From an uncultured bacterium (GTDB taxonomy: Bacteria; Chloroflexota; Anaerolineae; J036; Brachytrichaceae), in contig CAIXPS010000460.1 in NCBI GenBank assembly GCA_903921365.1, positions 1-44,609 on the forward strand: 44,609 nt of DNA. The letters are read 5' to 3'. Below are positions 30,505 to 42,565 of the stretch, piece after piece (position 1 is the stretch's first letter; each line of letters starts with the position of its first letter). A program made the translations under genes and the position numbers. The notes beneath the pieces are model-generated. The model was not told where the DNA came from, ran no database searches, and saw only the letters and a program-made list of their open reading frames with translations.

Positions 30505-30774
30505 TTATCCACAAACACCCTCTCTTATCCCCAGAATGTATAGGACTTGTCCACATTTCTAACGAGTTATGTAATGCGGCGACTTTACTTAACTCTATCT
30601 TAACGTGAGTCTAATGCAATCCATACCCTACCTGTGGCATCCTTCAGGCATGCTATCCCCACATCTGGCGGGTAGTTTTGCCCCCTGTAGCGGCGATGTT
30701 GGGTGTATTTGAGTGGATTTTTGTGGATTTCTGTGAATAACCTGTGGATTAATAGTCGCACAAGCTGTGAACAA
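30505..30774. other. Cluster of DnaA-box-like 9-mers in a gene-free stretch
   Basis: Perfect TTATNCACA boxes are TTATCCACA (30505-30513, plus) and TTATTCACA (complement of 30732-30740). One-mismatch or looser relatives are TTATCCCCA (30525-30533), TTGTCCACA (30547-30555), and the complements of 30722-30730, 30743-30751 (TAATCCACA) and 30766-30774 (TTGTTCACA). A more AT-rich segment with ACTTTACTTAACTCTATCTT lies between the two groups (about 30555-30620). The left group is all plus and the right group all minus. It may be an origin-like or DnaA-titrating site; the gene-free part contains nothing else recognisable. Confidence 0.55.
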
Positions 30775-30777
30775 CTC

Positions 30778-32058
30778 GTGCATCGTGTGGCGCGCGCGCG
30801 CCGCGCGGTTTTGCCGAAACTCATCCTTCTGGTAGTCCTCCTGACGCTGGTGCGCACCGACGTTGCCCAGGCCTATTCGCGCGATGCGATTCTCGACCGT
30901 CTGCTGATCGGCAAGGAGTTTGACTTTGTCAACTGGGAAGTGGACGCTGCTTTTGCCAAGATCGGTCACGAGTTGACGTTGCCGCAGTTGGGCATGACTG
31001 ACGCCGATCAGCTCGTTTTTGTCAAGGCCTATATGCGGCGGGTAGGCGACTTTCAACAGCTTGAAAATCAGATCGACGCGCTCTACACTGACCCGCAGGA
31101 GAAAGACCCGGCAACTGCGAGCGCAGCCCTGCGCGCGCAACGCGATCAGTTGAGGGCAGAGATCGACGCGCGCCAGAATCTGGCAGAGGCGATCATGCAG
31201 GAGCAGGTGGAGAGCATTCTGCGCGAGGAAGGCTTTGCGGTGGGCGGCCAGATCATGCCCCCGTTGCGTTTCCGCTTCACGCCGCTGCCGTATGTGTTGA
31301 TTATCTCGCGCCGCGACAAGATCGAGCGGACCGATCAACGCGAACTGACCACCGGCCTGACGGTGGACGAATTCGACCGCATCGAGAAGGCGGTTGAAAA
31401 ACGGCTGAACGTGTCCGCGCTGGTCACCCCGATCGGCGGATTGGGCGCCTATCCCACCATGTTGCCCGAGACGGCATCGTTGCAGTTCACACTGGAGACG
31501 GCTGCGCATGAGTGGACGCACAATTTCCTGCTGTTCAGCCCGGTTGGCGCCCATTACGGCGACGACCCGGTGGCGCGCGTGATTAACGAAACGACCGCCG
31601 TGATCCTGCAAAGAGAGATTGGCATGCGCGTGCTGGAGCGGTACTACCCCGAACTCCTGCCGGCGCCGGCAGCAACGCCGGCTGCAAAGCCTCCGGCGCC
31701 AAGCGAGCCCACAAACCAGCCGCCGCCGTTCAGCTTTAACGCCGCGATGCGCGAGACGCGCCAGCGCACCGACGAGTTGCTTGCTGAGGGCAAGATTGAC
31801 GAGGCCGAGGCATACATGGAGGAACGGCGCGCGCTCTTCGTCAAGAACGGTTACGCGCTTCGTCGCTTAAACCAGGCGTACTTCGCTTTCTACGGCGCCT
31901 ATAATGCCGAGCCGGGCGGCTCACCAACCTCCGGCAAAGACCCCATCGGCCCGGCGGTGCAGGCGTTGCGCAAGAACAGCGCGTCACTTGGCGACTTCGT
32001 GCGCAAGATCGCGACGGTGCAGACATTACAGGATGTGCAACGGCTGGCCGCCCCATGA
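30778..32058 (+). CDS. Putative secreted zinc metalloprotease-like protein (HExxH)
   Basis: I do not recognise a named family. The 426-residue product begins with an Arg-rich N-terminus and a hydrophobic core (AVLPKLILLVVLLTLVRTDVAQA), a probable signal peptide. HEWTH at 244-248 is a zincin motif, and NETTAV places Glu271 as a plausible third zinc ligand, as in gluzincins. A Pro/Ala-rich linker (about 295-320) is followed by a charged helical region. GTG 30778 is chosen because it gives a compact signal peptide; the frame is open to 30703, but that part overlaps DnaA-box-like sequence. Alternative GTG at 30790. Catalytic activity is inferred only from the motif. Confidence 0.65.
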   Translation: MHRVARARRAVLPKLILLVVLLTLVRTDVAQAYSRDAILDRLLIGKEFDFVNWEVDAAFAKIGHELTLPQLGMTDADQLVFVKAYMRRVGDFQQLENQIDALYTDPQEKDPATASAALRAQRDQLRAEIDARQNLAEAIMQEQVESILREEGFAVGGQIMPPLRFRFTPLPYVLIISRRDKIERTDQRELTTGLTVDEFDRIEKAVEKRLNVSALVTPIGGLGAYPTMLPETASLQFTLETAAHEWTHNFLLFSPVGAHYGDDPVARVINETTAVILQREIGMRVLERYYPELLPAPAATPAAKPPAPSEPTNQPPPFSFNAAMRETRQRTDELLAEGKIDEAEAYMEERRALFVKNGYALRRLNQAYFAFYGAYNAEPGGSPTSGKDPIGPAVQALRKNSASLGDFVRKIATVQTLQDVQRLAAP

Positions 32059-32106
32059 GGACTTGCGAATTCTGAAGTATCATCTCTCTCACAGGGAATC
32101 AAACGC

Positions 32107-35100
32107 ATGAAACGGCCGTCGCAGATCAACAACATCGCCAAAGACTACGCTGTCCAAACCGAAAGCCCTCCCACGATTGATTTCAACGCAGACCCGGACA
32201 TCGTGCGGGTAGTCGTGGAAGGGGAACGCCTGACTTACGGCCACTTATTCAACCCGGCATTCGCGACAGAGACATCGAAGATTGACCCGCTGCCGCATCA
32301 GCGCATCGCGGTGTACAAGAAGATGCTGCCGCAGCCTCGGTTGCGTTTCCTGCTGGCCGACGATGCAGGCGCTGGTAAGACAATTATGACCGGGCTGTAC
32401 ATCCGCGAGATGCTTTCACGCCGCTTAATCCGCCGCGTGCTGATCGCGCCGCCAGCGGGTTTGATTAACAACTGGGAACGCGAAATGCGCACCTTGTTCA
32501 ACCTGTCTTTCAATGTGCTGTCAGGCGCAGATGCACGATCAGGGAATCCATTCATAGGCGAGGACAGCAATCTGCTCATCGTCAGCATGGATACGCTGGG
32601 CGGCGATAAGATGTTTGCCCGCCTGCAAGAGCCATCCGTTGAACCTTACGACCTTGTTATCTTCGATGAGGCGCATAAGCTCTCCGCCGATCGACTGCCC
32701 GACTATACCCTTCGTCGCACAGATCGCTACCGTTTGGCCGAAGCGCTGGCCGGCGTTCATGGCGACGGTCCATGATGGGCATTGAATTGGAGCGCGCATC
32801 ATCTGCTCTTGCTTACGGCGACGCCGCACATGGGCAAAGATTACCCGTATTACTGCCTGTGGCGTTTGCTGGAGCCGGAGGTGCTATCGACCTTTGACGC
32901 CTTCAACTCATATCCACCCGATGCGCGCAGCCGACATTTTGAGCGGCGCACCAAGGAAGAGATGATCCGCTTCGATCATTCGCGCATTTATCCCATGCGC
33001 GTCTCGAATACGCTCAGCTATGAACTCTCGCAGGGCGACATCAGCGAACAGGCGCTCTATGACCAGACAACGGAGTACATCAAGATCGTTTATAACCGGG
33101 CTCGCTTTCTGAACCGTTCGGCGGCGCGGTTGGCGATGACCATCTTTCAGCGGCGGTTGGCCAGTTCCACCTATTCGCTGTTGTGCTCGCTCAGAAAACG
33201 CCTCGACAAGCTCAATGGGATGATTGCGGATGTCCAGTCGGGCAAGATCACGCTGGCGCAATTGCGGACTCATCAAAGTGAGCTTGAAGTCAAAGATGTT
33301 CTCGACGAAATGACCGGCGATGAAGAGCGCCCCGAGAATGGTCTTGAGGAAAATGAGGTCGCTGAAGATCAGGCGATGATGGGTGTTGTTGCCAGCACAC
33401 TGGCAGAGCTTCAGGCTGAACGCGAAAAGGTCATTGGTTTAGCCCGCCTGGCAGAGCAAGTGGACGAGAAGGGCGACGAATCGAAGTTTGACAAGTTGCG
33501 CGAGGTGATCACCGACCCGCAGTTCAGAGATGAGAAAGTCCTGATTTTTACTGAGCACCGCACCACACTTAACTTTCTGGTGCAGCGACTGGAGGGCATC
33601 GGTTTTGCGGGCCAGGTTGCCTGTATTCATGGCGGGATGGGAACACAACCCGATTCCGTGACACGTTTGAGCGAACGCGATGAGCAGGCTGAGTTCTTCC
33701 GCAAACCGAGTGCGGACGGCGGGGCGCGCTTCCTGGTCGCAACCGAGGCTGCCGGGGAAGGCATTAACCTGCAGTTCTGTTGGATCATGGTCAACTACGA
33801 TCTGCCATGGAATCCCGCGCGGCTGGAACAACGCATGGGGCGCATCCACCGCTATGGGCAGGCGCATGATCCTGTCGTGATTGCGAACCTGGTGGCGGGC
33901 AAGACGCGCGAAGGGCGCGTGATGAAGACGCTGCTCGATAAGCTGGAGCGCATCCGCAAGGAACTGGGTTCCGACAAGGTGTTTGACGTCATCGGACGAT
34001 TGTTCGAGGGTCTGTCGATCCGCGACTACATGGAAAAGGCGCTGACCGAAGAAGGCGCCAGACAGGTGGAACTGGAGACACAAGGCGCCTTTACCAAAGA
34101 ACAGGTCGCCGCTCTGGAAGCGCGCGAACAACAACTCTTTGGATCTGGCGGCGATGTGGCCGATGCGTTGGCGGATCAGCAGGCCGAACTCAAGATCGAA
34201 GAGATGCGCCGCCTGCTCCCTGGCTATGTGCGCCGGTTCTTCGAAAAAGCCGCGCCATTGGTGGACATTCAACCCGAAGGCGACATGGACGGTGTTTTCA
34301 GCCTGAAGGCGCGCCGGCCTTTCGCGCTTGATCCATTCTGGCCTGTGCTCGAAACGTATCCGATCGAGCAACGACAGCGCTTCACTCTGTATCGCGCACA
34401 CGCGCAGGAACCAGCGATCTTTCTGCACCCCGGCGAGCCGTTCTTTGATCGGTTCAGCGATTACGTTTGCAGGCGGTTCTCCCGTGACGCTTTGCGCGGC
34501 GGCGTGTTTGTCGATCCTTACGCCCAACGCCCGTATTTCTTTCATCTCATGTTGATCACTGTGTCACGCCGATCAGAGCCCGGTATGCGGGCATTGGCGC
34601 GGGGTGAGTTGCTGGACTGCCGGTTGCTTGGTCTCAAACACAGCGAGGATGGCGCGATCGAAGAATGCCCGATTGAGAGCCTGATGCTGTTGAGAGGCGG
34701 GCCTGGGCGCGCCCCGGAGGCGGCTGACTTCGCCAGGACAGCCGAGCACTCCTGCGCAGGGGTGCGGACTTATGCGCTCGAACAAGTCGCCGAGTCCATT
34801 GCCAATGGGCGCCGTCAAGCACTGCTGGCATCCCTGCCGGAACGCGAGGCGTTTGTTGTGCGCGGGTACGATTTTCAGGATTCCGATCTGGCGGCTGCGC
34901 GCAGTCGTCTGAGGGACAAGGCATTGGCGGGCGACCCACGGGCTAAGGGCGAGGTCACGAAGATTCGCGAGCGCCAACAGGCGCTATCAGCCAGACGGGA
35001 GGCCGCCATCGCCGCGTTGCGCCGCGAACCGGAGCTGATTGCGCCCAATGCGGATGCATTCACTTGGCTGGCGCATGCGCTCGTTGTGCCCACTAGCGAC

Positions 35101-35538
35101 CCGGAAGACCGCAGGAGGCATGACGATGAGGTTGAGGCCATTGCCGTCAGAATCGCGCGGGCGCATGAAGTCGACCATGTCGACCATGATGGCAAGGTCA
35201 AGGATGTCTCAACCCCCAGACTGGCACTGGCTGCCGGCCTGATGGAACATCCCGGCTTCGACCTGTTGTCAGAACGCTCGGCGGCAGAGAGCCGCTATAT
35301 TGAAGTGAAAGGCCGCGCCGGGGTGGGCGATGTGGAACTGACTGAGAACGAGTGGGCACAGGCCTGTAACCATCGCGGCAAATACTGGCTGTATGTCGTC
35401 TACAATTGCGCCACACCCAACCCGCAGTTGCTGTGCATTCGCGACCCATTTGAGAAGCTATTCATCCGCCTCAGGGGCGGCGTTATCGTCGGTGAGCGGG
35501 AGATATTTGGGGCGGCAGAAATTGAAGAGAACCTATGA
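32107..35538 (+). pseudogene. SNF2-family helicase with C-terminal DUF3883, interrupted by one in-frame TGA
   Basis: ATG 32107 opens a helicase whose frame is stopped by TGA at 32773-32775 and then continues in the same frame to 35538, so this is a single nonsense codon, not a frameshift. Before the stop: ADDAGAGKTIM (Walker A), IAPPAGLINNWERE, FDEAHKLSA. After it: LLLLTATPHMGKDYPYY (motif III), HGGMG, ATEAAGEGINLQFC and PWNPARLEQRMGRIHRYGQ (motifs V-VI). The C-terminus (SRYIEVKGRAGVGDVELTENEW) is DUF3883, a nuclease-like fold. The uninterrupted product would be about 1,140 residues. The 3' end overlaps the methylase start (ATGA). A second product could start at TTG 32782. Sequencing error, decay or phase-variable loss are possible. 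Confidence 0.85.
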
Positions 35539-38500
35539 CCAATGACCGGCGACTGATTGAAGTCGCCTTTCCACTCAAACAAGCCTCGCTGGATTCCGTT
35601 CACGAAAAGAACGTTCGGCACGGGCATATCTCCACGCTGCATATCTGGCCGGCGCGGCGACCATTGGCCGCCTGTCGCGCGGCGCTGATTGCAACTCTGC
35701 TGCCTGATCCCGGCACGCCGGAAGAGCGCCAGGCGCTGATCGAGAAGATCGGCGGCAAAGTGAAGCAGCGGATTGAGAAGAAGAAGGTCGGCGGCAAGAT
35801 CGTCGAGACGGTTCGCGAGGAAACGGAAGGCGGCATTCTGCACTGGGGACGTGAATCCAACCCGGATATGGACTGGTTCCGCGCGGAGATACGCAAAGCC
35901 TATGGTGGGCGAGCGCCGAAGGTGCTGGATCCGTTCGCTGGCGGTGGGGCTATCCCGTTGGAGGCGATGCGGCTGGGCTGCGAAACGACGGCCATTGACA
36001 TCAACCCGGTGGCATGGTTCATTCTCAAGTGCACGCTCGAATACCCGCAGAAGTTGGCGGGCCAACGGTGCCCGTTACCTTCATTTATTCTCAAAGATCG
36101 CGATTTCATGGAGGCGTATTTCAAGGCTCAGGGATTCAAGGGCAAAACGCTACAGGCCCAACTCGACAAACTGGGCTTGACGGAGACAAATTCGCCCACA
36201 TTAAGCGGTTTCGGAGTTGAAACGCCCTCATTGGAAGCTGACCTGGCCTGGCATGTGCGCGCCTGGGGGAAATGGGTCTTGGGGAAGGCGCGTGAGGAGT
36301 TGGCGACTTATTATCCAACCTACGCTGACTTTCAACCACTCACTGGCACGACCGCATGGAACGAGAGCGCGGAACGCATAAATTATGTGGGTGAACGCAA
36401 GCTCGTCCCGCTTAAGCGCGATGGGACGCTTGACGTGGAGACATTGAACGCCGAATTTGATAAGGTTTACCTCAGTGATCCCAGGAACCCACGGTGGGTG
36501 CCTAAGCCATCGGTCGCTTATCTGTGGGCGCGCACAGTAACCTGTAAGAACTGCCGGGCGACCATCCCATTGCTCAAAACACGTTGGCTGTGCAAGAAAG
36601 ACAGCAAGCGTGTGGTGCTTGTGATGCACCCGAATCCTGACAAGACAGGAGTAGTGTTCGATGTACTTGCAGAGGTACCGCAAGCTGCCAGTAACACTGT
36701 ACAACGCCGTGAGCATGACAAGCGAGTTGGTGCAGGAACAATGACACGCTCTGGTGCAACATGTCCATGCTGTGGAACGATTATCACAATGGAAGATATT
36801 CGTTTGGAGGCAAGAGCGGGATGTATGAGTGCAACGATGACTGCAGTTGTAATAGACGGCATGAAAGGCAAGGAGTATCGTTCGCCAACACAAGAAGAGC
36901 GTATCTCAATAGATTTGGCTGAAAAAGAACTACCACGTGTATTTGCGAATGTGCCATTCGATATTCCTAATGAACCTCTACCAACAAAGGAGGCACTTGG
37001 GTTTCGGGTGCCTTTATACGGTATAGATAAATGGAGTAAATTATTCACGCATCGCCAACTGCTTTCACTTGGTATGTTCGTAAATATTACTCGTTCAGTC
37101 CAAAGAGAAGCTTCCGCTAAGTACAAATCCAAATTGTGGATAGAAGCGATCAATGCCTACTTAGCACTTGCGGTGAGTAGACTTGCAGATCGATCAAGCA
37201 CGATTTGTCATTGGAGTCTTGGGCGAGAAACGATACAGAATACCTTCTCGCGTTACGCTTTACCAATGAATTGGGATTATTCAGAAACTAATCCAATTGC
37301 TTCTAGCAGCGGTACATATGATGGCCATGTGGAGTGGATTGCGGAGGTTATCGAACACTGTGAAAATGCCCAACAACGAGCACCTGATTCCAGAGTAATA
37401 AAGACGTCTGCGACCAAAACAACCACTGAAAATAATTGGGACCTTGTTCTTACTGACCCCCCTTACTACGACGCAATTCCTTACTCTGACTTGATGGATT
37501 TTTTCTATGTCTGGTTACGAAGAGCACTATATGGCTTGACCCCGGAAATTGATGCGTCATTTACGCAACCGCTTTCACCAAAATGGGAAACGAATCAGAA
37601 CGATGGTGAACTAGTAGATGATTCGAGTCGTTTTGGTGGCGATAAGGAATTATCAAAAGCAACCTATGAGTCAGGTATGTATCGCGCATTTCAAAGCTGT
37701 CATCGCTCCTTGCGAGCAGATGGCCGTTTGGTGGTTGTTTTTGCACACAAACACCCTGATGCGTGGGAGACACTCGCTTCTGCAATCATTCATGCTGGTT
37801 TTGTAGTGGATGGTAGCTGGCCTATACAGACAGAGATGGGTAACCGCACACGCGCTCTTTCTTCGGCAGCCCTTTCCTCTTCGGTTTGGCTTGTCTGCAA
37901 GAAGCGATCGGAAGCGGCCCGACCGGGTTGGGACAATCGCGTACTGGATACGATGCAGGCGAATATATACACCCGGCTGCGCGAGTACTGGGATGCGGGC
38001 ATCCGTGGCCCGGACTTCGTCTGGGCGGCTACTGGCCCTGCACTTGAAGCCTATAGCCAGCATCCTGTAGTCAAGAAGGCGAATGCCCCCAATGAGTTCA
38101 TGACGGTTTCTGAATTCCTGCATCATGTGCGGCGCATTGTGGTTGACTTCGTCGTCGGGCGGATTTTGTCTCGCGATGGCGCCGAGGCAGTCAGCGGCTT
38201 GGACGATGTAACGAACTATTATCTGCTTCACCGGCATGATTTCGGGTTGGGAGATGCGCCGGTCGGGGCCTGCATCTTGTACGCAGTCTCATGCAGTCTG
38301 ACGGACACCGCGCTCGTGGATCAGGTTGACATACTGTTTCACTCTGGCGGTCAGGCTGAAGCCGAAGCGGAAGCCGAGGAAGATGGTGATGGTGAGGAAG
38401 CCGCAACGGATGAGGAAGATACCGTTGAGGGATCCGGCTCCAAGGTGCGTTTGAAGGCATGGAATCAACGCAAGCGACCAGCCATGGGGTACGACCCGGC

Positions 38501-38837
38501 AATTGATAGCCCACGCGCGCGCGCCAATGCAGCCACTCCATTGCTATTTCCAGATATGGAACGCCCGACACCCAAGCTGCGCGTGGTCCCGTTGATCGAT
38601 CAGGTGCATCGCCTGATGCAGTTGTGGAAGGCCGGCGATGTGGTGAAGGTCAATGATTACCTGGACGCGCGCGCCTTGAGCAAGAACACGCTGTTCCACA
38701 AACTGCTGCAAGCGCTCATCGAACTGGCGCCGGCCGGCAGCGAGGAACGGGCATTATTAGAAAGCATCAGCAACCACGTCGTCGCGAAGGGCATGGCGGT
38801 CGAACAGAGGCCTGGGTTGTTTGACGACGTGACCTGA
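35535..38837 (+). CDS. DUF1156 Zn-ribbon adenine-specific-type DNA methylase
   Basis: A 1,100-residue DNA methyltransferase of the COG1743 type. The N-terminal DUF1156 (LIEVAFPLKQASLDSVHEKNVRHGHISTLHIWPARRPLAACRA) is followed by SAM motif I (LDPFAGGGAIPLEAMRLGCE, about residue 130), a Zn-ribbon (CKNC about 336, CPCC about 411) and catalytic DPPYYD near residue 641. The C-terminus has an acidic low-complexity linker (AEAEAEAEEDGDGEEAATDEE). It starts in an ATGA overlap with the helicase. The middle (about 36,600-37,860) is AT-rich relative to both ends, suggesting exchange of a specificity region. It probably modifies host DNA in a defence system; base and site are unknown. Confidence 0.9.
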   Translation: MTNDRRLIEVAFPLKQASLDSVHEKNVRHGHISTLHIWPARRPLAACRAALIATLLPDPGTPEERQALIEKIGGKVKQRIEKKKVGGKIVETVREETEGGILHWGRESNPDMDWFRAEIRKAYGGRAPKVLDPFAGGGAIPLEAMRLGCETTAIDINPVAWFILKCTLEYPQKLAGQRCPLPSFILKDRDFMEAYFKAQGFKGKTLQAQLDKLGLTETNSPTLSGFGVETPSLEADLAWHVRAWGKWVLGKAREELATYYPTYADFQPLTGTTAWNESAERINYVGERKLVPLKRDGTLDVETLNAEFDKVYLSDPRNPRWVPKPSVAYLWARTVTCKNCRATIPLLKTRWLCKKDSKRVVLVMHPNPDKTGVVFDVLAEVPQAASNTVQRREHDKRVGAGTMTRSGATCPCCGTIITMEDIRLEARAGCMSATMTAVVIDGMKGKEYRSPTQEERISIDLAEKELPRVFANVPFDIPNEPLPTKEALGFRVPLYGIDKWSKLFTHRQLLSLGMFVNITRSVQREASAKYKSKLWIEAINAYLALAVSRLADRSSTICHWSLGRETIQNTFSRYALPMNWDYSETNPIASSSGTYDGHVEWIAEVIEHCENAQQRAPDSRVIKTSATKTTTENNWDLVLTDPPYYDAIPYSDLMDFFYVWLRRALYGLTPEIDASFTQPLSPKWETNQNDGELVDDSSRFGGDKELSKATYESGMYRAFQSCHRSLRADGRLVVVFAHKHPDAWETLASAIIHAGFVVDGSWPIQTEMGNRTRALSSAALSSSVWLVCKKRSEAARPGWDNRVLDTMQANIYTRLREYWDAGIRGPDFVWAATGPALEAYSQHPVVKKANAPNEFMTVSEFLHHVRRIVVDFVVGRILSRDGAEAVSGLDDVTNYYLLHRHDFGLGDAPVGACILYAVSCSLTDTALVDQVDILFHSGGQAEAEAEAEEDGDGEEAATDEEDTVEGSGSKVRLKAWNQRKRPAMGYDPAIDSPRARANAATPLLFPDMERPTPKLRVVPLIDQVHRLMQLWKAGDVVKVNDYLDARALSKNTLFHKLLQALIELAPAGSEERALLESISNHVVAKGMAVEQRPGLFDDVT

Positions 38838-38853
38838 TTGCTGCGATTGAAAG

Positions 38854-38871
38854 CTGCGAATGAATTCGCAG
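38854..38871. repeat. CTGCGAAT-GA-ATTCGCAG palindrome
   Basis: Perfect 8-bp stem with a 2-base loop, starting 17 bp after the methylase stop. No T-run follows. Confidence 0.85.
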
Positions 38872-38885
38872 CCTGACACCGCTTC

Positions 38886-38950
38886 GCGAAACGCGCTGAA
38901 GCGCGTTGCAGAGGTTGGCCATCGTCTTAACGCGCTTCAGCGCGTTTCGC
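38886..38950. repeat. 22-bp perfect inverted repeat with self-complementary arms
   Basis: The arm at 38886-38907 is the exact reverse complement of 38929-38950, with a 21-base loop. Inside each arm AACGCGCT and AGCGCGTT pair around two bases, so each arm can also fold alone. The structure can switch between one long hairpin and two short ones. Confidence 0.88.
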
Positions 38951-38959
38951 ATTGTCAGC

Positions 38960-39051
38960 CGCGAATTCATTCGCGGGACTCATTCGCTCATTCGCGGGAT
39001 TCATTCGCGGGGCATATTCGCGCACATACGCGCGGGACACATTCGCGGACT
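38960..39051. repeat. Degenerate (C)ATTCGCGGGA tandem repeat
   Basis: Repeated words CGCGAATTCATTCGCGG, CATTCGCTCATTCGCGGG, ATTCATTCGCGGGG, CATATTCGCGC and CACATTCGCGGAC follow at 10-18-bp intervals. It could be an expanded palindrome fragment or a binding array; no gene product is implied. Confidence 0.7.
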
Positions 39052-39113
39052 CTGATGCTGCGGCGTAAAATGATGGGGTTATTTACGGTCAAACCCTTAG
39101 ACTGGAGAACACG

Positions 39114-42100
39114 ATGAGCACGAGTAAATTGGCATGGAAACCCTGGCATCAAGTAGTTTCTCTCCGCGATGACATGCGCACCGGTGAGTTGTCGCTGGCG
39201 GTGTTCGCGGCGGATCTATACGATGTGATGAGGGGAACGGCTCGTCCTGTCTACCAGAATCCGGTCAGTTTCTTTGCGCTGACCTACCCCACCTACAACC
39301 TGCGTGAGCTTGCCAAGGATGTGGTGTTGCGGCTGATGGGAAAGAATGAGAAGGCGGTGCGCCAGCTCGAACTCACTTATGGTGGCGGGAAGACGCATAC
39401 GCTGATCACCCTGTATCACCTGGTGCGCAACCCAGAGCAATTACCGCAGTTGCCAGCCGTCAACGAGTTTATCCAGCATATCGGCGGACGACCGCCCAAG
39501 ACGCGCGTTGCCGTGCTGGCTTTCGATAAACTCGATGTCGAGAAGGGCATGGAAGTGCGCAGCCCCACCGGCGATATGCGCTGGCTTCGAAATCCCTGGA
39601 GCGTGCTGGCCTATCAACTCGCCGGTTCAGACGGGTTGCGATTGTTGCATGCCGATGGGCAGGATGCAGAGCGCGAAAGCGCCCCGGCAGAAAACCTGAT
39701 GGTCGAACTCCTGGCGCTTCCGTATCAAGATGGCTTGTCCACGCTCATTCTGATCGATGAAGTGCTCATGTATGCGCGCGAGAAGATCGGCAAGGATCCT
39801 GCCTGGCGCAGCCGTCTGGTGAACTTCTTCCAGTATCTGACCCAGGCGGCCACCAAGGTGGATCATTGCGCGATTGTGGCGTCGCTGCTCGCGACGGATC
39901 CGGCCAAGAGCGACACACTGGGCAAGGAAATCACCCAGGAACTCTATGCCATTTTCCGGCGCGAGCGCGAGGAAAGCGTGCAGCCGGTGTTGAAGGAAGA
40001 CGTGGCCGAAGTGCTGCGCCGCCGCTTCTTCACGCAGGATTCCGTGCGCGACCCGGGGGCGTTTCGTTCGCACGTGGTTGCGGCGCTCAAGGGGATATCC
40101 GATCTGGATGAACAGACTCGCAAAGATGCTGCCTCTGCCGAGAAACGCTTCCTCAACAGTTATCCTTTCCACCCGGATTTGACCGAGGTGTTCTACACCA
40201 AGTGGACCGGGCTGGAGGGATTCCAACGCACGCGCGGCATCCTGCGCACATTTGCCCTGGCGTTACGCGATGCGGAACACTGGGATGAAGCGCCATTGAT
40301 CGGCGTCAACGTGTTTATCGGCCCGCCTGGACAAACGGGCCTCTCTGATGCCGCCCGCGAACTGACCAGCACCGCTGCGTCTGAGGAGTACGAGGGCAAG
40401 AAACAGGACTGGGCCAGCATCCTCGAAGGCGAGTTGACCAAGGCGCGCGACATTCAGTCCGATACCGGCGGCCTGAGGTTTCGCGAGGTCGAACAGGCGG
40501 TGTTTGCCACTTTTCTGCATTCACAGCCAATTGGGCAAAAGGCGCTCACCCGCGACCTGATGCTGTTGCTGGGCGCAACCCGACCGGACAAGATCGAACT
40601 GGAGAAGGCGTTAAAACGCTGGATTGAAACCTCATGGTTCCTTGACGAAGGGGCGCTCAGCGATGCGGAAACCTCATCCGATGGCAAGCGCCAGTTGCCA
40701 AAGTCATGGCGGCTTGGATCAAAGCCCAATCTGCGGCAGATGCACCATGACGCGTGTCTGCGCGTCACAGAGCTGGTCGAACCCAGGCTCATTGAAGAGA
40801 TCGGGAAGCTCAAAAACCTGACATCCGGCGCTTCAGGCGCAGGGGTGAAATCGCATAGTTTGCCCAGGAGCCCGCGCGACATCGAAGACGATGGCGAGTT
40901 TCATTTTGCAGTGCTGGGTCCCAAAGCCGCATCGGAGAGCGGAAAACCCAGCCCCGAGGCAAAACGATTTATCGACGAAACCACGGCGGCAGATCGACCG
41001 CGCGTGAATCGCAATGCGATGATTCTCGCTGTTCCTTCACGTGACGGGTTGGATGTGGCGCGCAGCCGCATTACAGACCACCTGGGGTGGATTGAAGTCC
41101 AAAGCCAGATGAAGGGTCAGGATATTGATCCAATCCGCTTCGAAATGCTGGCTGTGAGCCTGGAAACGGCGCGGAGACGCGTGCCCGAGGCCATCCAGCA
41201 GGCATACTGCATCGTGGCGACGGTGTCCGATAAAAATGAAGTGCAGGCATTCAAAATCACGGTGGGCGACAAGCCATTGTTTACCCAGATATGCGAGGAT
41301 AGCCGTTCGCGTATCCAGACAACGGCGGTGACCGCAGAAGCCCTTTTGCCCGAAGGCCCCTATAACCTGTGGCGGGACAACGAGACTTCGCGGCGGGTGA
41401 AAGACCTGGTCGGCGCGTTTGCACAGTTCACGCATCTGCCCAAGATGCTCAACCGCAGCGCCATCCTCGACACCATCATTCAGGGCTGTAAGCAAGGGCT
41501 GTTCGTGTTGCGCCTGACACGACCGGACCGTTCCTATCGATCCATATGGCGCCAAACGCCATCCGAGGTTGATCTCAAGGAGCCCAGCCTTGAAGTCATA
41601 TTACCTGAGGCGGCAACGCTCACTGAGTTCTCGCCTGCGCTCCTGATCGCAGGCGCTCTCCCAGACCTTTGGGCTCATTCTGAAATCAGCATGCAGGACA
41701 TCGCCGCTTATTTCTCAGGTGGGCATGTGGTGAAAATAAAGCACGAGAACTATGAGGAGCCTTTTACGATTCCGCAGGCAGAGCGCCCGGCTATTGAAAC
41801 GGCAATTCGGGCGGCTGTCCACGATGGCAAGTTATGGTTAACCTCAGGCCCAGCCAGCCTATTGGCGGAGGACATTCCAACTGGCATCCTGACCGACAAC
41901 GCACTTCTGCAAGCCCCGCCACTGCCCATTGCGGTTAACGATATCCTGCCTGCAAGCTTGCCGGATGCATGGAGCAACGGGATTACGACTGCGCTTGCCA
42001 TCTCGGTTGCACTGTCGCAGAAAGCTGGCAAAACACTGCCCTGGATCACCGTGCGCAATGGCATCGACAGCGCAATCCACGCCAGAATGATTGAGACAGC

Positions 42101-42431
42101 CTTCGACTCCGGTCAATGGCCGTGTGACTATAGCGGCGCGCAGCATGTGAAGGTGCAACTGCCGGCAAAGATCACACCGGAGCAGCCCCCTTCCACGCCT
42201 CCCCCGCCACTGCAAGCGCCTGGCGTGATGGTGGCAGAAGCGATCCTGAGCATTAGCCAGATCCAGGATTTGGCCGACGCGGTTGCTGACCTCGGTAAAA
42301 CCGCCGTCGGGCTGGACTTGAAGTTGCATCTGCGCGTCGAGCTGGGCGGCAAAACCAAACCATCCGCAGAAGTGGCGGCTAAGATCAATGAACTCCTGAA
42401 GGGAGTGTCGGCGGAGTTCAAGCTTAAGTAG
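39114..42431 (+). CDS. DUF499 AAA+-type ATPase (COG1483-like)
   Basis: A 1,105-residue large P-loop ATPase. The N-terminus (KPWHQVVSLRDDMRTGELSLAVFAADLYDVMRG) is the DUF499 signature. Walker A is LELTYGGGKTHTL at 86-98 and Walker B is TLILIDEVLMYA near 214-225. Further conserved parts are NFFQYLTQAATK and FYTKWTGLEGFQRTRGILRTFALALRDAEHW. Near the C-terminus a Pro-rich linker precedes an alpha/beta segment (SISQIQDLADAV onward). COG1483 ATPases are repeatedly found beside COG1743 methylases and DUF3883 helicases, as here; BREX BrxC/PglY are distant relatives. It is presumably the motor or sensor of the cluster. A GGAGAA ribosome site precedes ATG 39114. Confidence 0.9.
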   Translation: MSTSKLAWKPWHQVVSLRDDMRTGELSLAVFAADLYDVMRGTARPVYQNPVSFFALTYPTYNLRELAKDVVLRLMGKNEKAVRQLELTYGGGKTHTLITLYHLVRNPEQLPQLPAVNEFIQHIGGRPPKTRVAVLAFDKLDVEKGMEVRSPTGDMRWLRNPWSVLAYQLAGSDGLRLLHADGQDAERESAPAENLMVELLALPYQDGLSTLILIDEVLMYAREKIGKDPAWRSRLVNFFQYLTQAATKVDHCAIVASLLATDPAKSDTLGKEITQELYAIFRREREESVQPVLKEDVAEVLRRRFFTQDSVRDPGAFRSHVVAALKGISDLDEQTRKDAASAEKRFLNSYPFHPDLTEVFYTKWTGLEGFQRTRGILRTFALALRDAEHWDEAPLIGVNVFIGPPGQTGLSDAARELTSTAASEEYEGKKQDWASILEGELTKARDIQSDTGGLRFREVEQAVFATFLHSQPIGQKALTRDLMLLLGATRPDKIELEKALKRWIETSWFLDEGALSDAETSSDGKRQLPKSWRLGSKPNLRQMHHDACLRVTELVEPRLIEEIGKLKNLTSGASGAGVKSHSLPRSPRDIEDDGEFHFAVLGPKAASESGKPSPEAKRFIDETTAADRPRVNRNAMILAVPSRDGLDVARSRITDHLGWIEVQSQMKGQDIDPIRFEMLAVSLETARRRVPEAIQQAYCIVATVSDKNEVQAFKITVGDKPLFTQICEDSRSRIQTTAVTAEALLPEGPYNLWRDNETSRRVKDLVGAFAQFTHLPKMLNRSAILDTIIQGCKQGLFVLRLTRPDRSYRSIWRQTPSEVDLKEPSLEVILPEAATLTEFSPALLIAGALPDLWAHSEISMQDIAAYFSGGHVVKIKHENYEEPFTIPQAERPAIETAIRAAVHDGKLWLTSGPASLLAEDIPTGILTDNALLQAPPLPIAVNDILPASLPDAWSNGITTALAISVALSQKAGKTLPWITVRNGIDSAIHARMIETAFDSGQWPCDYSGAQHVKVQLPAKITPEQPPSTPPPPLQAPGVMVAEAILSISQIQDLADAVADLGKTAVGLDLKLHLRVELGGKTKPSAEVAAKINELLKGVSAEFKLK

Positions 42432-42565
42432 AGATGCTTTTAGTTGACCTCCACGCTTCCGGCGATTTGTAAGACAATCTCCTTGATTGAACCGATTTTG
42501 TCCGCTTATCTCGATAGTGTGCACACGAAGTGCATCGATAGAAATAGAAATGAAGGAGTTGCATC
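42432..42565 (+). promoter_or_regulatory. Leader of the aminotransferase gene
   Basis: TTGATT (42483-42488), 18 bp, TATCTC (42507-42512) is a weak promoter candidate. A perfect 10-bp palindrome, GTGTGCACAC (42517-42526), lies at the expected transcription start and could be an operator. AAGGAG (42552-42557) is a good ribosome site for ATG 42566. Confidence 0.35.

Follow-up and report, generated by a model that had tools for sequence, protein, structure and literature searches.

A probable Hma phage-defence cluster with an interrupted effector gene in an Anaerolineae genome, and a helix-turn-helix variant of its helicase branch

A helicase, a methylase and an ATPase on one strand

We analysed a stretch of 44,609 nucleotides (the window; contig CAIXPS010000460.1 of assembly GCA_903921365.1) from the draft genome of an uncultured Anaerolineae bacterium (Chloroflexota), which has a size of 6.9 Mb in 603 contigs and a contamination of 2.9%. 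Positions 32107-42431 of the forward strand encode an SNF2-type helicase with a C-terminal DUF3883 (Pfam NOV_C, E 7.5e-16), a DUF1156 methylase (E 8.5e-18) and a DUF499 ATPase of 1,105 amino acids (E 4.3e-15), here named hmaA, hmaB and hmaC after the Hma phage-defence system (Table 1). A previous sequence-only reading had described three genes at this place; their Pfam domains and common strand were borne out, as were the ATGA overlap of the helicase and methylase genes (35535-35538) and the Zn ribbon of the methylase, whose two CxxC pairs are kept without change in all 49 HmaB sequences compared. The helicase, however, is not a single open frame: from 32107 the frame stops at a TGA after 222 amino acids and reopens, without a frameshift, at 32782-35538. 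Catalytic residues are all intact in the trio, and motifs I, II and VI, DPPY and the CxxC pairs are invariant in the relatives that cover them.

Table 1. Features of the hma locus, in window coordinates.
Feature	Position	Strand	Evidence or remark
Upstream open reading frame (ORF), predicted secreted protein with HEWTH motif	30703..32058		No Pfam match; genus-conserved
Hma-bearing block unmatched at these flanks in other genomes of the genus	32059..42550		Broken collinearity
hmaA, SNF2 helicase-nuclease, 1,143 codons including the internal TGA	32107..35538	+	PADLOC HmaA; Pfam Helicase_C, NOV_C
Helicase motif I, DDAGAGKT	32359..32382	+	K and T invariant in 80/80
Helicase motif II, DEAH	32665..32676	+	D and E invariant in 82/82
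In-frame TGA in hmaA	32773..32775	+	ORF reading; aligned residue in relatives R (32), A (17), D (9), others
Helicase motif VI, QRMGRIHRYGQ	33829..33861	+	Q and three R invariant in 82/82
DUF3883 nuclease domain	35089..35535	+	Catalytic D (GFD) and E-x-K near 35254-35316, invariant in 81/81
hmaB, DUF1156 DNA methyltransferase with Zn-ribbon insert	35535..38837	+	PADLOC HmaB, 412 bits
hmaB motif DPFAGGG	at 35928		Invariant in 49/49
hmaB motif DPPY	at 37455		Invariant in 49/49
hmaB-hmaC spacer with dispersed palindromic repeat	38838..39113		Repeat count in genome
hmaC, DUF499 AAA+ ATPase without N-terminal HEPN	39114..42431	+	PADLOC HmaC, 254 bits
hmaC Walker A, YGGGKTHT	39378..39401		
hmaC Walker B, LILIDE	39744..39761		

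Assignment to Hma

By profile scores, taken without the PADLOC system rule, the best PADLOC families for the three proteins were HmaA (PDLC00659) for both helicase fragments (178 and 324 bits, nearly full length), HmaB (PDLC00661) for the methylase and HmaC (PDLC00662, profile positions 3-810 of 941) for the ATPase. The name Hma dates from 2021, when Payne et al. (PMC8565338) described a three-gene operon with 1,638 instances in 26 phyla. In 2026 the same gene set was presented, according to the main text of PMC12839542, as the Type-1 BREX-related (BR) system, consisting of a DUF499 ATPase, a DUF1156 N6-methylase and a Swi2/Snf2 helicase that ends in an active nuclease, and homologous to the Type-3 BREX core; that text cites one experimental Snf2-nuclease study. 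The DUF3883 domain had been termed a restriction-endonuclease domain as early as 2013 (PMC3710099). Modelled alone (predicted local distance difference test score, pLDDT, 90.6), it aligned best with the Hjc resolvase (Z 10.7, 113 residues, 3.1 Å), followed by RecU, PvuII, DpnI and EcoRV. Foldseek returned nothing under E 0.001 for the model, and the fold claim therefore rests on the structural alignment and the catalytic residues; as modelled, DUF3883 has a nuclease fold of PD-(D/E)XK type. The model of HmaC (pLDDT 85.2) had Cdc6/ORC as its best match in the PDB, as published for the family.

A helicase scan of 84,980 species genomes yielded 80 related loci at 51-64% identity, and viral contigs added one. 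Downstream of the helicase relative, hmaB is present on 65 of these 81 contigs, and the other 16 end within 2.3 kb of hmaA; all three genes follow in A-B-C order on 41 of 81. Order and strand are kept in relatives of many phyla, and the association of the genes is far beyond chance. A fourth conserved member in the A-B or B-C gap was rejected, as the intervening genes vary.

We are highly confident that the cluster is an Hma (Type-1 BREX-related) restriction-modification-like phage-defence system from a branch in which HmaA is normally headed by a helix-turn-helix (HTH) domain and preceded by a palindromic operator. The system itself is known; its branch shows a new regulatory variant, and the copy in this genome is interrupted. 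Much of what the sequence-only reading proposed agrees with this: a self-contained three-gene defence or modification system that is neither BREX nor DISARM, an ATPase with kinship to BrxC, and a likely effector role for the helicase-DUF3883 protein, which accords with the literature and with the Holliday-junction resolvase-like fold. Its view that the system has no settled name is wrong: Hma and Type-1 BR already describe the trio, and every component is there in the window, except that the effector gene is interrupted.

N-terminal domain of HmaA and the upstream operator

For the Type-1 BR helicase the published N-terminal domain is TUDOR, and in the main text of PMC12839542 we found no mention of an XRE domain or N-terminal HTH on helicases. 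Close relatives of the window HmaA mostly lack this TUDOR domain, which is new here. An XRE-type HTH heads 71 of 82 HmaA helicases, and Pfam HTH_3 was detected in 35 of the 43 relatives scanned; only L027 and L147 have a TUDOR-like N-terminus. Since the relatives were picked by similarity to the window helicase, the fractions given here for HTH and operator do not represent Hma systems as a whole. The match to the PADLOC HmaA profile starts at position 67-69 in the HTH types and at 33 in the TUDOR-like L027, so the HTH variant is not represented in that profile. The window helicase is nested in the HTH clade of the tree, closest to L032 (local support 99), and yet carries neither HTH nor TUDOR, an absence that the sequence-only account of its domains had missed; several relatives likewise have no such N-terminal domain. 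With a hidden Markov model of the 71 HTH domains, no separate HTH was detected in six frames of the 44.6-kb window or near the HTH-less relatives L041, L059 and L091. In one genus of the window's phylum (further loci), the HTH seems to have decayed. A cyanobacterial draft encodes an HmaA with an N-terminal extension of about 300 amino acids in place of HTH or TUDOR (L043:2016-6248), most likely the CHAT domain matched by one of the 43 scanned members.

Within 220 bases before the HTH, a strict pattern finds the palindrome TATNNCANNTGNNATA in 45 of 71 HTH loci, compared with a mean of 0.02 after shuffling and a single match in the remaining 1.13 Mb of the same loci; a loose pattern finds it in 49. 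A second motif, ATCGCGTG, stands before the palindrome or, inverted, after it, at a distance of about 16 bp, in 27 of the 45 loci (shuffles, 0.165). Relative to hmaA, this composite operator can point either way (16 to 11), and its spacing stays at about 16 bp (e.g. L101 and L054). In four genomes (those of L088, L094, L103 and L105) the palindrome is present exactly once, at hmaA; its narrower form had no exact match in six other genomes checked. When 2.9 million viral contigs were scanned with the composite pattern alone, one locus was recovered, with an HTH-HmaA directly downstream. The palindrome was absent from all HTH-less loci (0 of 8; Fisher p 0.0002 with the loose pattern and kinship ignored), and no operator lies upstream of the window hmaA. 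The predicted operator site of the cultured relative Desulfofundulus thermobenzoicus (L036) is TATCGCACTTGATATA.

Several observations weigh against the reading of the cluster as an Hma system from an HTH-headed, operator-bearing branch with an interrupted effector. The assignment, as said, is one of profile scores, and the window HmaC, at 254 bits against 1,177 for another copy in the genome, is far under canonical HmaC. By either pattern, 22 of the 71 HTH loci are without the operator, and in further genomes of the window's phylum three HTH loci lack it, while L136 has it. Otherwise intact HTH-less hmaA genes exist (L041, L049 and L059), so that loss of the HTH alone need not mean decay. Finally, the window HmaA deviates at just 3 of 218 near-invariant positions, without a marked excess of changes.

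Interruption of hmaA

The TGA comes after motif II (DEAH) and before the TATPH motif, separating motifs II and III. A conserved recoding or readthrough event at this codon was excluded, as no relative among 82 plus 13 further loci has an internal stop there or elsewhere in the aligned HmaA; single TGAs in G212 and in G249 fall outside it. A search for signs of relaxed selection on hmaA showed no marked excess of changes at near-invariant positions, and the lesion is therefore recent or an assembly error. Read with the TGA, the effector of the window looks disabled; the stop itself may reflect genuine decay or be an error.

Two explanations deserve equal weight, each with a little less than an even chance. 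The TGA may have arisen in sequencing or assembly, or may be an allele from part of a mixed population, in which case the Hma of the window would be fully working. The fragmentation and contamination of the genome are typical of mixed-sample drafts, one C-to-T change in the arginine codon CGA would yield TGA, and HmaA keeps all its motifs along with the low number of deviations; set against this, hmaA also lacks HTH and operator and lies beside a break in synteny, which fits a damaged 5' region. Just as plausibly, hmaA has recently become a pseudogene, leaving the hmaB-hmaC pair as a modification-only remnant. The position of the stop between two helicase motifs and the loss of N-terminal domain and operator speak for this, as does the intactness of hmaB and hmaC (0 of 249 and 4 of 252 near-invariant positions deviating), but the 920 downstream codons are without further lesion, the stop is unconfirmed, and translation restarting at TTG 32782 would yield a protein that lacks motifs I and II. 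A real stop would leave a locus that could methylate but probably no longer restrict. For the window, the label is corrected to a known Hma whose effector gene is possibly dead.

Proposed mechanism and regulation

Family knowledge and published inference suggest how the system may work. HmaB would methylate adenine at a recognition site and thereby mark self DNA, HmaC would assemble a scanning complex as an ORC/Cdc6-like AAA+ ATPase, and HmaA, a putative RapA-like translocase with a C-terminal PD-(D/E)XK nuclease, would degrade unmarked DNA. From the XRE HTH on HmaA and the palindromic operator, we infer autorepression, in which the effector would act as the repressor of its own operon; the sequences may fit activation or a titration switch as well. 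A more specific version, which we consider rather unlikely, is that in a large branch of Hma systems the XRE HTH binds one composite operator, ATCGCGTG-N16-TATAACANNTGTTATA, upstream of the operon, and that recruitment of HmaA to invading DNA would titrate it off the operator and thus induce the system in the course of an infection.

Slightly less likely still is that the HTH of the relatives is not an autorepressor and instead reads target DNA or its methylation for the effector, like the role proposed for TUDOR. The HTH takes the position of TUDOR, for which the main text of PMC12839542 proposes reader roles. A reader would need no single dedicated site upstream of hmaA, however, and this alternative is weakened because the palindrome lies just there in most HTH loci and, by the exact pattern, only there in four genomes. 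Silencing and induction of defence systems are poorly known. The dedicated and widely conserved operator, linked to an HTH on the effector, opens regulation in this Hma branch to direct testing and provides a simple mark in the DNA by which such systems can be found.

Comparison with known systems

The window cluster shares with the Hma of PMC8565338 the three genes, their order and families, with PADLOC profiles top for all three; it differs in belonging to a divergent branch, whose HmaA has an N-terminal part unmatched by the PADLOC profile, and in the interrupted effector. With Type-1 BR, as described in the main text of PMC12839542, it has in common the DUF499 ATPase, the DUF1156 N6-methylase, the Swi2/Snf2 helicase with PD-(D/E)XK nuclease and the absence of PglZ and DUF3780. 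The helicase of that paper has TUDOR, whereas most relatives have an XRE HTH and the window neither; because TUDOR was published as a common feature and is absent here, the window copy is a variant of Type-1 BR and not a typical member. M.SsoII and M.Ecl18kI (PMC3978073) are restriction-modification enzymes whose N-terminal HTH domain, of 434-repressor type, binds a regulatory site and controls transcription, but the regulator there is the methylase, while in the HTH-HmaA branch it would be the helicase-nuclease effector. XRE-family controller (C) proteins of restriction-modification systems also place an XRE HTH on the operator of their own operon, as separate small proteins unfused to an effector. 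Type-3 BREX (BrxC, BrxX, BrxHII) has a homologous ATPase, methylase and helicase; in the window no PglZ was found, and DUF499 stands in place of DUF6079.

Type-2 BR is marked by an HKD/PLD nuclease at the N-terminus of the helicase and by a DUF3780 gene; here the NCBIfam model phospholipD_antiphage scored 114 of 1,100 bits and no DUF3780 was detected in the scanned ORFs. That the cluster is a fragment of BREX or DISARM instead of Hma is very improbable: the helicase does match DrmD and BrxH profiles and HmaC is distantly related to BrxC, but the helicase scores 324 bits with HmaA vs 206 with DrmD, the NCBIfam model DISARM_DrmD reaches 229 of its 610-bit cut-off, and the scanned window ORFs hold no PglZ (the mark of Type-3 BR/BREX), BrxL or DUF1998 protein (DrmB), as the sequence-only reading had stated.

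Flanks, further copies and gene neighbourhoods

Apart from the operator of its branch and the interruption, the window cluster is ordinary. It lies at a genomic join: collinearity with the same-genus genome G001 (75.5% over 6.1 kb) stops on the left at 32048 and on the right restarts at 42554 and 42551 on other contigs of G001 and G002, respectively. The start of hmaA is 48 bp past the left flank gene, next to the left break. The join in the window is derived, because the left flank gene has a right neighbour common to G001 and G004 and the right flank gene a left neighbour common to G001 and G002. A clean empty site was not found among the congeners, where both flanks are on separate contigs. 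The ORF upstream of hmaA was excluded as a fourth Hma member, as it is common to the genus (68-77% identity) and outside the synteny break; its product is unrelated to the defence cluster.

In the spacer between hmaB and hmaC, AACGCGCTTCAGCGCGTT occurs twice and, with at most one mismatch, at nine other sites of the genome (11 in total); GCGAATGAATTCGCGG-like units are also part of this repeat. Further Hma genes of the same genome are located on contigs C35, C218 and C328 (loci L029, L028 and L030). C35 carries a second set, consisting of the helicase C-terminus, HmaB and HmaC, and C218 and C328 carry a third HmaC and HmaB with canonical-Hma scores of 1,177 and 1,516 bits.

At loci L032-L112, the gaps between hmaA, hmaB and hmaC contain 0-9 kb of varied genes, by sequence reading AAA/AbiEii/OLD-type ATPases (10 loci), AlbA/Schlafen-like (7) and ParA-like (4) proteins, as if the gaps served as an insertion platform. 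In L027 (3241-15678; same class as the window), a PIN-domain gene occupies the A-B gap and an AAA ATPase plus DUF4276-like pair the B-C gap, so that another defence cassette is perhaps nested inside Hma.

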